Under the pieces are notes generated by a model that saw only the letters and a list, made by a program, of their open reading frames with translations, was not told the DNA's origin and did no database searches. From Thozetella sp. PMI_491 (Eukaryota; Ascomycota; Sordariomycetes; Chaetosphaeriales; Chaetosphaeriaceae): a DNA stretch of 64,000 bases. How positions within the stretch are numbered: position 1 is the first letter of the stretch; each line of letters opens with the position of its first letter. Below are positions 48,233-53,520 of this stretch, piece after piece. The stretch lies in assembly GCA_021432635.1 (NCBI GenBank), contig MU270029.1:866575-930574 (forward strand), written 5' to 3'. A program made the translations under genes and the position numbers.

Positions 48233-50882
48233 CTAACGATTCCATGCCTCTAGAGTCGCTACAGAAGAAAGAGTATCTGGGTGGTGTTGGCCCAGAATCC
48301 GCTGGCGGGCTCGGACACAGCTCTCCATCAATACCAACGCATCTCGATGTCGACCTAGACTCTCCAAAGTAGAAGCCAGGTTGGCCATACTGGTCAACGT
48401 TTTGGGATGGTCAGCCCCAAGCTTGGCTTTACGGGTCTCCAGTACCTCCACATCTAGCCTCTCAGCGTCGTCCCACCGGCCCTGGTTCCTATATGTCGAT
48501 GCCAGGTTGGCCATACTGGTCAACGTATCAGGATGNNNNNNNNNNNNNNNNNNNNNNNNNNNNNNNNNNNNNNNNNNNNNNNNNNNNNNNNNNNNNNNNN
48601 NNNNNNNNNNNNNNNNNNNNNNNNNNNNNNNNNNNNNNNNNNNNNNNNNNNNNNNNNNNNNNNNNNNNNNNNNNNNNNNNNNNNNNNNNNNNNNNNNNNN
48701 NNNNNNNNNNNNNNNNNNNNNNNNNNNNNNNNNNNNNNNNNNNNNNNNNNNNNNNNNNNNNNNNNNNNNNNNNNNNNNNNNNNNNNNNNNNNNNNNNNNN
48801 NNNNNNNNNNNNNNNNNNNNNNNNNNNNNNNNNNNNNNNNNNNNNNNNNNNNNNNNNNNNNNNNNNNNNNNNNNNNNNNNNNNNNNNNNNNNNNNNNNNN
48901 NNNNNNNNNNNNNNNNNNNNNNNNNNNNNNNNNNNNNNNNNNNNNNNNNNNNNNNTCGTCCCACCGGCCCTGGTTCCTATATGTCGATGCCAGGTTGGCC
49001 ATACTGGTCAACGTGTCAGGATGGTCAGCCCCAAGCTTGACTTTACGAGTCTCCATTACCTCCATCTCTAGCCTCTCAGCGTCGTCCCACTGGCCCTGGT
49101 TCCTATATGTCGATGCTAGGCTGGCCATACTGGTCAATGTGTCAGGATGGTGAGCCCCAAGCTTGGCCTTGCAAGTCTCTATCAGCTGTATAAACAGCAT
49201 CTCTGCCTCTGTCCATCTACCTCGACGCCTGATCACCTCGGCAAACAAGAATGTACTTGCTAGAGTAGCTCTATCTTCCTTTCCCAGCCTCTTTTCTCGA
49301 GCCTTTCGAGCCATCCCTGCCATACGCTCTGCTATATCATACCTTCCCTGCAGCCACGCATACCAACCCCCGTTATATAAGAGAGTTGCCCACTGGTCTA
49401 GCCATTCGTCCTTTGGTCGATATTGGAGCGCTGCTTGGACATGTGTAAAAAGAGCCTGGCAAACCGGCCAGTTCTCATATTGCCCTATCGGGAATGCCGC
49501 CGCCATCCGATCCATATACTGCTGCTGGAACCTCTCCTGCTGGCCAGATGTTGCCAGCCACTTTCTCGTCGATAGCTGTACGAGGCTGTGCATCTCAAAC
49601 TCATCTCCTTGCTCATTTGTGGTTACAAGGCAGAAATCTCGCAGGATTGCTATGTCTTCTTCAAACCCATTCTCACCAAGATTAGAATATCCATCGGAGT
49701 TGCTGTCTGATTGACTAGCCCATTCGCCGTCCGATTCGTTGCCACTATTAGCAGCACCGCGGGCAGGTCCCTCGACGTCAGCCTTTAATACCCACTCTGG
49801 AATCCCTTGTCGGTCGAAGAAGCTCATCAACGAAAGCAAATCGGCGGCCGATGGCTGCTTGGACCGGATGCGATCAAACGAAATACGCCACGTCGTGAGC
49901 ACTGCGTTTGATGCCCCGCCATCTCGCCGCAGGTCTCCGACCTCGTGTTCTAGAAGCCTCGTCTTTGTGCGCTCGCTCTCGTAAAATTCGTTTAGGTATT
50001 TCTCGATTGAGCTCCGCGGTGCTCTTGCCTGTATGTAGGCTGCCGCCTGGATGATGGCCAATGGGACGAGGTCGAGTGCCTGCACCAGCGTGCCTGCCGC
50101 TTCTCTATCCCATTGTGGAGACGGTCCCATCTTCTTTTGTAAGAGTGCGAGCGCTTCTCCTTCCGTCATGGCGCCCACGTCGATCGAACTGCTGCGGCTG
50201 CCCGTCAGCTCGTCCGCCAGGCGCTTGTCGCGTGTTGTGGCAAGAATGCATCCGTTCCGACTCTGCGGTAGGTATGTCGCAAGGGCCCGTCTGTCCTGCA
50301 CGCCGTCCGTGGTGCCGAATAACACATCGTAGTCATCGGCGCTGTCTAAGACTATGACCCATCGGCCGTTCTGCTCGTTGGATAGCCAGTGGTACACAAG
50401 CAGTGGAATATCAGCCTTCGGTTGCTTCCGCCCTGCCAGCTTGACCATATCTGCAATCGCCCTGAAGCCTTCTTCGACCCGTGCACGAGTACCGGCATGT
50501 ACCCAGAATACCCACAGGCCGGTCGTACCCTCGCTGAGTCGGTGCACGTATTCGATGGTGAGTTGCGACTTGCCGATCCCGCCCAGGCCCACGAGGGCGG
50601 CGCGGTAGGGCGCTTTCAAACATATTTGATTGATCTGATCGAGGAGGTCTCCACGGTTGACGAAATCGGGATCGCGGCAGAAGGGGATCGATGCGTAGGG
50701 CTGGGGTGGGGTCTCGGATTGTTCTGGAGAAGTTAACTTGGCTTGGCTTGGAGGCATTACCAGAAGATATCTTTACCGGACGGGAGGTGGATTGTATTGT
50801 TGATCGTCCCAAGGTGGGACCCACCAACCTGAACACCGTAATTATGAGACCCAAAGGAAGTAGTGTTGTCTTGATATGCCAT
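48233..50882 (-). CDS. NLR with N-terminal PP-type amyloid motif, NB-ARC and TPR array (PNT1-like)
   Basis: Exon 1 is 50882-50777; a 53-nt intron (GTAAAG...CTCCAG, 50776-50724) joins it to the large exon 50723-48233. Exon 1 encodes 35 residues with the motif GVQVGGSHLGTINNT (residues 16-30), whose VQVG core matches the fungal PP motif and the animal RHIM. The splice restores HLPSEQSETPPQPYASIPF, the usual linker into fungal NB-ARC domains. P-loop GLGGIGKS is at residues 81-88; Walker B is RWVIVLDSADD; GCILATTRDKRLA is the sensor block. After a winged-helix region (EFEMHSLVQLSTRKWL) come kinesin-light-chain-type TPRs, the later ones nearly identical 42-residue units. A run of 420 Ns interrupts this array, so length and frame across it are unknown. 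Starting the gene at 50757 (MPPSQAK) would lose the motif. The predicted role is ligand sensing by TPRs and templating of the neighbouring HeLo-like protein. Confidence 0.88.
48375..49240 (-). repeat. 126-bp tandem repeats encoding TPR units (with gap)
   Basis: Period is exactly 126 bp: the landmark GCCAGGTTGGCCATACTGG recurs at 48375 and 48501, then at 48989 after the gap, with a variant at 49115. Intact units 48375-48500 and 48989-49114 differ at about 9 of 126 positions. The spacing across the gap (488) is not a multiple of 126, so the N run is only an estimate. Confidence 0.9.
48536..48955. other. Assembly gap, 420 N
   Basis: Falls within the near-identical TPR repeats, which probably caused the assembly to collapse. 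True repeat number is unknown. Confidence 0.99.
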
Positions 50883-51062
50883 TTTCGACTGGTAGGTTGT
50901 CTGTAGATAGTAAACTACCGTGGGTAGATACTATTAGAAATGAAGAACAAGGCTCTGCGGCTGAGTGCCTGCACGTGATGTCAGGCAGTAAAATGTGCCG
51001 TCCGTCCTGATGACAGCAGGGTGATATTCTGATGAATAGTTAAAGAGCTTCCAGGAACCGCA
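50883..51062. promoter_or_regulatory. Shared 180-bp divergent promoter of NLR and HeLo-like gene
   Basis: Only 180 nt separate the two start codons. It contains one E-box, CACGTG at 50972-50977. So close a spacing suggests the two genes are co-expressed. Confidence 0.6.
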
Positions 51063-51924
51063 ATGGACCCCTTAAGCCTTACTCTCGGTATTGTAGGGGC
51101 TGTGCCACCTACGTTACATGGTGTGCGACTTTTGGTGGACGACATCCAGAAGATTCGCGATGCACCCGATACCGTCAACTCGATCCGAGACGAGCTACTT
51201 ATCATCGATACGACCGTTGCATCTCTAGAGGGCATCTCCGACGCCCAGTGGCAGTTTCTTGGCAAGACCGTAGCCACTCAGGCGAAAACCTCAATGTCGT
51301 TATGCACAAAGTCGTGCGTGAAATTCAGGGCTGCTCTGGGCCGCTGGACGCAACACAGCGGTGGAGAACTGTCTTGGCGTGATCGCGCTGTGGTCGGGGT
51401 CTTCAAACAAGGCCAGATCCAGTCGATGCTGACGCAGCTCCAAAGCTGCAAGACAACTCTAACTTCGGTTAATACTATGGCGTCTCTGTACGTGGCCTGA
51501 TTATGCCGGCACATACTGAGTATATATGCTAACTAGACAAAGGCAAAGCTCCTTAGCACAAGCGCGACTGAGCGAGGAAACTATGGCAATTGTATCGAAC
51601 AAAGCAACCGAATTTGCGGATACAATTGCAGCGATAGAGAAGAGGATCACTGAGGTGAATACCAAGCTAGGAGCCTTAGCTCTTACAGATCAGGGTCCGG
51701 ACGAGACAGAGGAGGACGAGTCCGGCGCAACGATTCAGATCAGTGCCGAAAAGTCTGCCTTGGAAGTATCGCATAAGCTGCTCGAAGAGCTAATCTCTAG
51801 GGCTCAGGCGGCAGTTGCAAATACAGGTGATCGGGATAGGTTCAATATCACATTTGGGGACTACAACAAAGGCGTCCAAATCGGCGGCAACGTGTCAGGC
51901 CCTATTAACAATACAGTTAATTGA
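51063..51924 (+). CDS. HELLP-like protein: HeLo-like domain with C-terminal PP amyloid motif
   Basis: Exons 51063-51487 and 51537-51924, 270 residues. The N-terminal ~200 residues are helical and open with MDPLSLTLGIVGAVPPTLHG, characteristic of the fungal STAND N-terminal / HeLo-like family, whose members can permeabilise membranes in regulated cell death. Heptad-rich helices follow (e.g. LSEETMAIVSNKATEFADTI), then an acidic linker (DETEEDESG). The final residues 248-269 hold GVQIGGNVSGPINNT, preceded by FGDYNK: an RHIM-like VQIG core. It matches the NLR's exon-1 motif at 13 of 22 positions. HELLP of Chaetomium globosum has the same order, a HeLo-like domain then a PP motif, beside an NLR with the same motif. 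The predicted role is as the effector, activated when the NLR motif templates its amyloid fold. No activity has been shown for this protein. Confidence 0.85.
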
Positions 51925-53520
51925 GAAGAATAGGTAGAAAATATATACCTTGGTTGCAATTATTTACGTAGAGGGGATGATCATACAGTAAAAAGTACTG
52001 AAGTACTCCGTAGAAACGGGAAGAATGGAAGGGCGGGAGGGCAGATGGGCAGGGGGACAGCACTGTACCTGCTAGCTGACTGCGCGTACCTGTTGATTGG
52101 GTGTGCAGCCAGTTTCGGCTCTATTAAGGGATGCTGACATAAATAGTTACCTTTTACTAGTTACACAGTTAACATATCTTACTGAGCTACAGAAGCCACA
52201 GGCCGTCTCACTTCACTAAACATGTTATCTAAATACCTATCCAGCGACACTTAATTCGCGCTCTACTGTACTCCCTCACAAAGCTAAAATGATATAATAT
52301 GATCACCTAGTTCTATACGGGCTGGCTATTGCAGTCGTTCGGAGGCATTCAGTGGTGCCCACAGTACCTAAGGCACTGCGTCCCTTCTTCATTATGTGCC
52401 TTCTAGAGCACTAACTACCAATCTAAACAATGTTCTCTCTTTAATAAAACCCCTCACTCTTAAGTTTCAGTACTCTCCCTCTCTACACGCGTAGTGTAAA
52501 GGTGCGAAGTTAGGGCATATCTTACTGTTCTTTCCTGCCACCTAATACGAGAGCATAGCAGATGCTACTCTTACTAAGTAGCAGCTTCGGTTGGAATGTT
52601 GGTGAAGAGAATCAATGCTCCGGTTAGGTGGCCGGGTGCTTTGCAGTACCTTGTCATTGGCTACATCTATCGGCATACCTTCCCGGAAATCGGGGTAGAA
52701 GCCGGGGCATAGAAACTTAGTAAAAGGGCAAAGTTTCAAGAGATAAATTTAATTGAATCAAGAACCTATCCTTATAGAGAATGTTGTTGTCTATCCCAAT
52801 GACACGAGCTTGCAGTATATACGGCAGCTTGTGTAGTCACCACAGAAACTTGCATAAAGTTGTGAACCTACTCTTTCCTGGAGCTGTCTCGGCTTTCCTC
52901 ATTTGCTACCATTCGAGCCTCCCAGCTATTTCTAACCCCCCTCACAACTGATTGACTGCTCTGCTAGACCCAAGACGGAATAAATACCCTTCAAGGCCTC
53001 AATGATGCTGAAGTATTACTCACACCGCGGAGTCCTGAGATTCTAAACAAGTAATTAAGCCGTGCATGGTGAGTGCAGTGGTTGAACTAGGACTGGCTGA
53101 TTTAAGTACGTTGACTGTACAGAAAAGAAAATTGTGCCGAGTTTCCGATACTGGAACCACGGGTTAACAAAAGTAGCTTACATTGGTCGAAATAGTTGCA
53201 TCCGGAATAAATTTCACTCTTCTCGGGCTAACTACCTAAAGCCGACAAAGTAATCCTCTATATCGCAGTCAGTTGCACCTCCTCAATGTAAGTTGCTTAC
53301 GTCGGCTCTCACGTCATATGATAGACACTGTCACATTCTCTGACCTAGATTCCACATAGGAATCGTGGATGCCAGTCAAAAGGTCCTCGAGGGTATAAAA
53401 AGTGCTTTCCATCCCACGGGTTGTCTGCCTATCTGCACCTTTCTTGGCAGCGCTACCTTGTATTAGTGCAAGAGCAAACAACTGGTCTGGCCGTCATCAT
53501 CGCGCATTGATCAAAAGAAA
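51925..53520. other. Intergenic, 1.6 kb, AT-rich
   Basis: No gene supported. A minus-strand 65-codon frame (52542-52739) opening KLCPFTKFLCPGFYPDFREG may be a relic of a repeated element; too short to name. The right end has the promoter of the small secreted protein. Confidence 0.45.
53394..53400 (+). promoter_or_regulatory. TATA box of the small secreted-protein gene
   Basis: TATAAAA, 127 nt before the ATG at 53521. Confidence 0.6.

Follow-up and report, generated by a model that had tools for sequence, protein, structure and literature searches.

A PNT1/HELLP-type gene pair with matched PP motifs in Thozetella sp. PMI_491, a candidate glutamine-less paralogous pair and an orphan PP tail

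Introduction

In Podospora anserina, the PNT1/HELLP system pairs a NOD-like receptor (NLR) of NB-ARC-TPR architecture, which carries a PP motif at its N-terminus, with a HeLo-like protein that carries a PP motif at its C-terminus (PMC7885112). According to the sections of that work cited here, the PNT1(1-31) fragment forms prions and activates HELLP (section 9), and three amyloid cascades operate side by side in this fungus without cross-induction (section 14). Here we describe a locus of the same layout in Thozetella sp. PMI_491, located in a 64,000-nucleotide stretch of DNA (the window) within contig C15 of a 72-Mb assembly. A gene encoding a PP-NB-ARC-TPR NLR (ATG at 50882, minus strand) neighbors a HeLo-like gene (ATG at 51063, plus strand), and the two are divergent with their ATGs 180 bp apart, an adjacency expected of a PP-type signalosome. 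Thozetella, a member of Chaetosphaeriales, already appears in the table of a 2015 survey of HET-s-related motifs (PMC4518210). The class to which the locus was assigned in the original prediction had, as was noted there, been described before.

Results

The receptor and effector carry the same motif

The N-terminal motif of the receptor, SFGSHNYGVQVGGSHLGTINNTIH, and the C-terminal motif of the effector, TFGDYNKGVQIGGNVSGPINNTVN, align locally over 24 columns without gaps, with 13 identities and a score of 75 that none of 20,000 paired shuffles reached (shuffle maximum 46), and the claim that one motif with 13 identical positions stands at both termini was thus borne out. The published PP core is NxGxQxGxN (PMC9815663), which the effector core, NKGVQIGGN, fits exactly and the receptor core fits except for its final N, replaced by S. 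A PP profile hidden Markov model trained on 13 motifs of other species, with the window pair excluded, matched both termini, as had been anticipated, giving 28.5 bits for the effector motif and 25.9 bits for the receptor motif, with none of 2000 shuffles as high in either case.

The Pfam entry PF17046 is a PP profile misnamed Ses_B (PMC12261475). At E values up to 10 it matched 15 of 16 motif peptides, the exception being that of the window effector, and the receptor motif peptide scored 15.9 bits, below the cut-off of 23.2. The weak or absent match is likely due to a residue inserted after the core (GG-x-x-x-G), which is common to both window partners. This insertion was present in one of 12 effector cores (24 effector relatives scanned) and in one of 63 NLR cores (two if the ambiguous P0072 is counted), and within the sample it is private to the window pair.

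The pair belongs to described families

The effector is 268 amino acids long, is identical over its full length to database protein P0001 (GQ53DRAFT_839923, Thozetella sp. PMI_491) and scored 59.4 bits against PF17111 in a Pfam search (cut-off 27.2). A search with the effector returned nine proteins: the effector itself, six proteins from other fungal species (43-53% identity) and two that are C-terminally truncated; a PP-like core lies at the C-terminus of all seven non-truncated proteins, the effector included. The NLR relatives considered were the best 120 among 1032 hits, from a search that scored 8000 candidates. A core scan matched 66 of these 120, three of them spurious in place, leaving 63 with a PP core ahead of NB-ARC; among the other 54, which lack the core, many have a shortened N-terminus and some a differing one. 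For three of the six other species, the effector and NLR relatives lie on equal-sized contigs and are probably linked (P0002/P0083, P0004/P0071 and P0006/P0099). Judged by full-length homology and by relatives that bear the motif at the corresponding ends, the window proteins are members of the PNT1 and HELLP families, and the pair is, on this sequence evidence, a new example of the known PNT1/HELLP cell-death switch of Podospora and Chaetomium.

Nine of the best 120 NLR relatives, all from Trichoderma (P0073, P0096, P0114, P0118-P0121, P0125 and P0128), have, where PP would stand, an N-terminal motif resembling FGDNATIHQGDINNVFNY that may be a different signalling motif. Unlike these nine, T. 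barbatum P0083 retains PP. The HeLo-like effector relative P0138 carries NTGILMATN at its C-terminus, with L where the central Q stands.

Gene structure and integrity of the receptor

The features of the locus are as follows (window coordinates; pLDDT, predicted local distance difference test).

48233..49275, minus strand: TPR array, at least this extent (TPR_10, 97.5 bits), containing the run of N at 48536-48955
49966..50598, minus strand: NB-ARC domain (PF00931, 35-36 bits)
50724..50776, minus strand: NLR intron 1, GTAAAG...TCCAG, 53 bp; no insertion across the junction when relatives are aligned
50777..50882, minus strand: NLR exon 1, 35 residues, taken up almost entirely by the N-terminal PP motif; this exon is also in database model P0010
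50787..50858, minus strand: NLR PP motif (PF17046 below cut-off; PP profile; pair alignment)
50883..51062, no strand: common intergenic region between the two start codons, 180 bp from ATG to ATG
51063..51487, plus strand: effector exon 1, bulk of the HeLo-like domain (PF17111; P0001)
51488..51542, plus strand: effector intron, 55 bp; identical splice in P0001
51543..51924, plus strand: effector exon 2, helical region and C-terminal PP motif (P0001; residues 240-268 with pLDDT below 50)
51850..51921, plus strand: effector PP motif (pair alignment, relatives, PP profile)

The matches to PF00931, TPR_10 and PF17111, together with the intergenic region, uphold the predicted divergent arrangement of an NLR and a HeLo-like gene. 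That the pair is complete, as was also claimed, stands in part: both genes are present and the effector is intact, and the NLR may be incomplete. A 420-base run of N (48536-48955) interrupts the TPR array. The frame open before it (48520-50772) is not the one that follows it (48233-48976), which makes both the length of the gap and the C-terminus of the NLR provisional.

This difference in frame across the run of N weighs against a working switch, and would be expected if the receptor were a decaying pseudogene and the pair no longer functional, with the effector left alone or as a relic. We consider such decay improbable. A single open frame extends from 50772 up to the run of N, the effector is intact with a conserved motif, and the gap sits among TPR repeats (48369-49275) with up to 91% DNA identity over 167 nt, where assemblies may misjudge length. 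There is also no clear AT-rich decay, the G+C content being 0.53 for 50001-52000; the 2-kb bin with the 420 N has 0.40. Near-identical TPR repeats of this kind are found in NLRs with strain-variable repeat number (PMC7885112).

The structure model of the effector is helical, with pLDDT below 50 over its last 29 residues (240-268), as expected of a natively unfolded motif. The evidence here is sequence, and it could be argued that the common motif is an ordinary folded homotypic docking peptide that forms no amyloid, the HeLo-like protein being activated by recruitment to the NLR oligomer. Pfam contains a RHIM model, and none of the 16 motif peptides was assigned to a RHIM family in a search with E values up to 10 and HMMER filters switched on (a method at its limit with motifs this short), which is in keeping with a docking peptide of this sort. 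We regard docking without amyloid as very unlikely, however, because the effector tail is predicted to be unstructured and because in Podospora the PP regions of these families behave as prions and switch the effector on (PMC7885112 sections 4 and 9). A role for the effector in pigment biosynthesis, which has in its favor the names PigL_N (PF17111 in the present Pfam copy) and 'Azaphilone pigments biosynthesis' (in the database), is scarcely credible for a protein that is paired with an NLR and has its motif, PF17111 being the former Helo_like_N model (PMC9815663).

A second pair on contig C11 has a glutamine-less motif

Genome searches returned at least 27 HeLo-like and at least 30 NB-ARC matches, and among the matches listed the two adjoin only on C15 and C11. 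The C11 pair (526000-530100) is arranged head-to-head, with the receptor starting at 529042 on the minus strand, the effector starting at 529236 on the plus strand and 193 bp between them, and the predicted proteins (867 and 274 amino acids) have no internal stops. The receptor has a short first exon that contains the motif, and introns of the pair are predicted from the DNA at positions matching those of the window pair. The C11 and window receptors are 44% identical over 614 residues; the effectors agree at 66 of the 137 residues compared in their HeLo-like parts and at 6 of 25 motif residues.

The C11 motifs are AQQSVVTGMNYGEI in the receptor and ANQSIVSGINRGSI in the effector, containing QSVVTGMNYG and QSIVSGINRG, respectively. 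In both partners the first core G is replaced by S and the central Q by V, such that G-x-Q-x-G becomes S-[VI]-V-[ST]-G. The PP profile did not recognize these motifs (7.0 and 3.2 bits, with 15 and 25 of 2000 shuffles as high), and Pfam gave no hit for either motif peptide. A DNA pattern of the C11 form, built from the pair itself, found two sites in 72 Mb, one per partner, as many as its reversed control. When five receptor-effector pairs were matched by motif, one other pairing in 120 scored equal or higher, as did one other in 24 when the C11 pair was left out.

Taken alone, the similarity between the C11 receptor and effector motifs is modest (score 44, with 2 of 20,000 shuffles as high), and the case for this pair rests also on gene order, homology and a further protein, P0131 (presumably fungal). 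P0131 keeps 20 of the 25 C11 motif positions, including the whole QSIVSG core, compared with 78 of 135 positions in the HeLo-like part and 48 of 101 in the middle of the C11 effector. That the changed motif is better conserved than the remainder of the protein argues for function rather than decay. A 2022 survey describes a second PP-like class, NLR39, as G-hydrophobic-Q-hydrophobic-G, and hence as one that keeps the glutamine (PMC9815663). The literature searches made and the passages covered of PMC9815663, PMC7885112 and PMC8086366 gave no description of a glutamine-less PP pair. We put the C11 pair forward as a candidate for a separate amyloid channel that the PP profile misses. Replacement of Q and G would change the side chains lining the fibril core, and the C15 and C11 channels should thus not cross-seed.

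Both loci also illustrate how gene models treat such motifs. P0010, the gene prediction for the window NLR, joins exon 1 to the NB-ARC exon through another acceptor that adds AKLTSP, while the acceptor chosen here fits the aligned relatives (HLPPERPETPP). In P0130, which models the C11 effector in the database, splicing runs across the motif, which is thereby hidden. Both models look wrong, and faulty models of this kind can conceal such motifs from protein surveys.

A HELLP tail without a detected HeLo-like domain on contig C105

On C105, an open frame on the minus strand (73871-74245) continues the second half of HELLP, being 44% identical to P0001 and 36-48% identical to the seven effectors compared, and its PP motif, NHNKGVQAGINHGTIHNTFN, scores above the PF17046 cut-off. 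A HeLo-like domain was not detected in this frame, and no NB-ARC lies on the contig among the matches listed. The frame starts at the apparent 3' end of a former intron, such that the killing half seems to have been lost. We see three possibilities for the tail: a relic, a segment spliced to an upstream frame (zinc-finger-like by eye), or a headless, prion-capable PP protein. Such a protein could, by analogy with the action of HET-s on HET-S, trigger HELLP on contact, and the Podospora authors raised a search for HELLP-type natural prions as a future question (PMC7885112 section 14).

Tentatively, and with somewhat less than even confidence, we propose that Thozetella maintains two paralogous PP-descended killing channels kept apart by a matched change of motif, and that the C105 tail could be a natural prion that triggers HELLP.

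Other matches in the genome

The search of the whole assembly for further motif-bearing proteins, suggested along with the original prediction, used a pattern and one Pfam family, which diverged motifs could escape, and yielded two further PP tails, on C105 and C69. The pattern NxGxQxGxN gave 15 hits and its reversed control 13; 12 of the 15 were dropped solely for their reading frames, some being short, others encoding Q/N- or G-rich proteins, two being copies that overlap, and two having 113 and 123 amino acids (on C1 and C5), and those on C15, C69 and C105 were retained. The PP-like tail at C69:128505 scored 22.0 bits with the profile (none of 2000 shuffles as high) and lies in AT-rich, stop-ridden surroundings, with a GC content of 0.28-0.37 in the middle. 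A reading of C69 as a nucleoside-phosphorylase relic with a PP tail, based on a phosphorylase-like stretch ahead of the tail, was not confirmed, as two pieces gave no Pfam hit and none of the 11 listed genome matches to PF01048 is on C69; only the PP tail is claimed.

Hits to NxG[VI]Q[VI]G on C29 and C113 lack a sensible coding context and were attributed to chance, as was a hit at C76:22342, in a linker just ahead of NB-ARC in a long frame, despite a score of 11.4 bits that none of 2000 shuffles equaled. The PF17046 hit on C43 was dropped, its frame being without a PP core.

The closest paralogue of the window NLR (P0014, 71% identity over 88%) is at C14:1-1560 on the minus strand, where it is cut by the contig end; no PP motif was seen upstream of it, and a lipase-like stretch there (HSLGG) was noted by eye, with a weak Pfam hydrolase hit (E 0.062). 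For a second NLR paralogue (P0126, 61% over 87%) at C14:294760-295398 on the minus strand, no PP motif was seen upstream of NB-ARC, and the frame ends soon after. Assignment of P0014 to this second locus was ruled out, since P0014 corresponds to the C14 contig end. PF11558 scored above its cut-off at C76:158583 and C20:191355, giving two HET-s-type motifs and indicating that several amyloid motif classes coexist in the Thozetella genome; the Thozetella row of the 2015 table lists two HRAM effectors, in agreement with these two matches (PMC4518210).

Discussion

We conclude, with a probability of roughly 85%, that the window locus is a two-gene signalosome of the PNT1/HELLP type. Full-length homology, the position of the motifs and the PP profile trained without this pair support the proposal that it is a relative of the Chaetomium-type system, with killing by amyloid templating probable by analogy. 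In this model, the NB-ARC-TPR receptor would sense a ligand via its TPRs and oligomerize, the oligomer would gather the N-terminal PP motifs and thereby nucleate an amyloid, the amyloid would serve as a template for the unstructured PP motif at the C-terminus of the HeLo-like protein, and the templated protein would attack the plasma membrane and bring about cell death. We infer amyloid nucleation, templating, membrane damage and cell death from work on Podospora and Chaetomium.

The window feature is confirmed; a further PNT1/HELLP pair, it carries a known system into another lineage. It is the C11 pair and the C105 tail that make this genome worth specialist attention. A single genome that contains a canonical PP pair, a paralogous matched pair without the glutamine and an orphan PP tail that lacks a killing domain is a useful comparison. 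It makes testable, with short peptides, the question of which residues decide mutual recognition of functional amyloids, and also whether killers of the HELLP type have come to serve as natural prions in self/non-self recognition, which the Podospora authors named for future work (PMC7885112 section 14).

Compared with the Podospora PNT1/HELLP system, which has no lipase partner (PMC7885112), the Thozetella pair differs in the one-residue motif insertion carried by both partners. CgPNT1, CgHELLP and CgSBP of Chaetomium globosum likewise include an NLR and a HeLo-like effector with a common PP motif. Unlike in Chaetomium, where a third PP component is the lipase SBP, relaxed scanning of the window in all six frames found no third PP motif besides those of the NLR and effector, in line with the original prediction that no SBP-like component carrying the motif is present in the window. 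No PP-bearing lipase was found among the examined PP-pattern and PF17046 hits in the assembly, which diverged motifs could escape.

The PP motif resembles the RHIM of RIPK1 and RIPK3 in its G-x-Q-x-G core and in its role, that of RHIM being in necroptosis. This resemblance, also noted in the original prediction, stands for the core, and Pfam and PDB profile searches gave no match beyond it: a PP motif profile matched no solved structure in the PDB at E values up to 10, a short motif being at the limit of this method, and PDB searches by sequence and by fold produced no decisive result for either MLKL or RHIM. Partial cross-seeding occurs between RHIM and PP prions (PMC7885112 section 14), and the two motifs act at different places in their pathways (PMC5485727).

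HRAM effectors have two 21-residue repeats, unlike the window effector, which has a single PP motif and no match to PF11558 (the HET-s motif) at E values up to 10. As in the NWD2/HET-S and HRAM systems, an NLR would template a HeLo-type killer by amyloid, and several motif classes are present in one genome.

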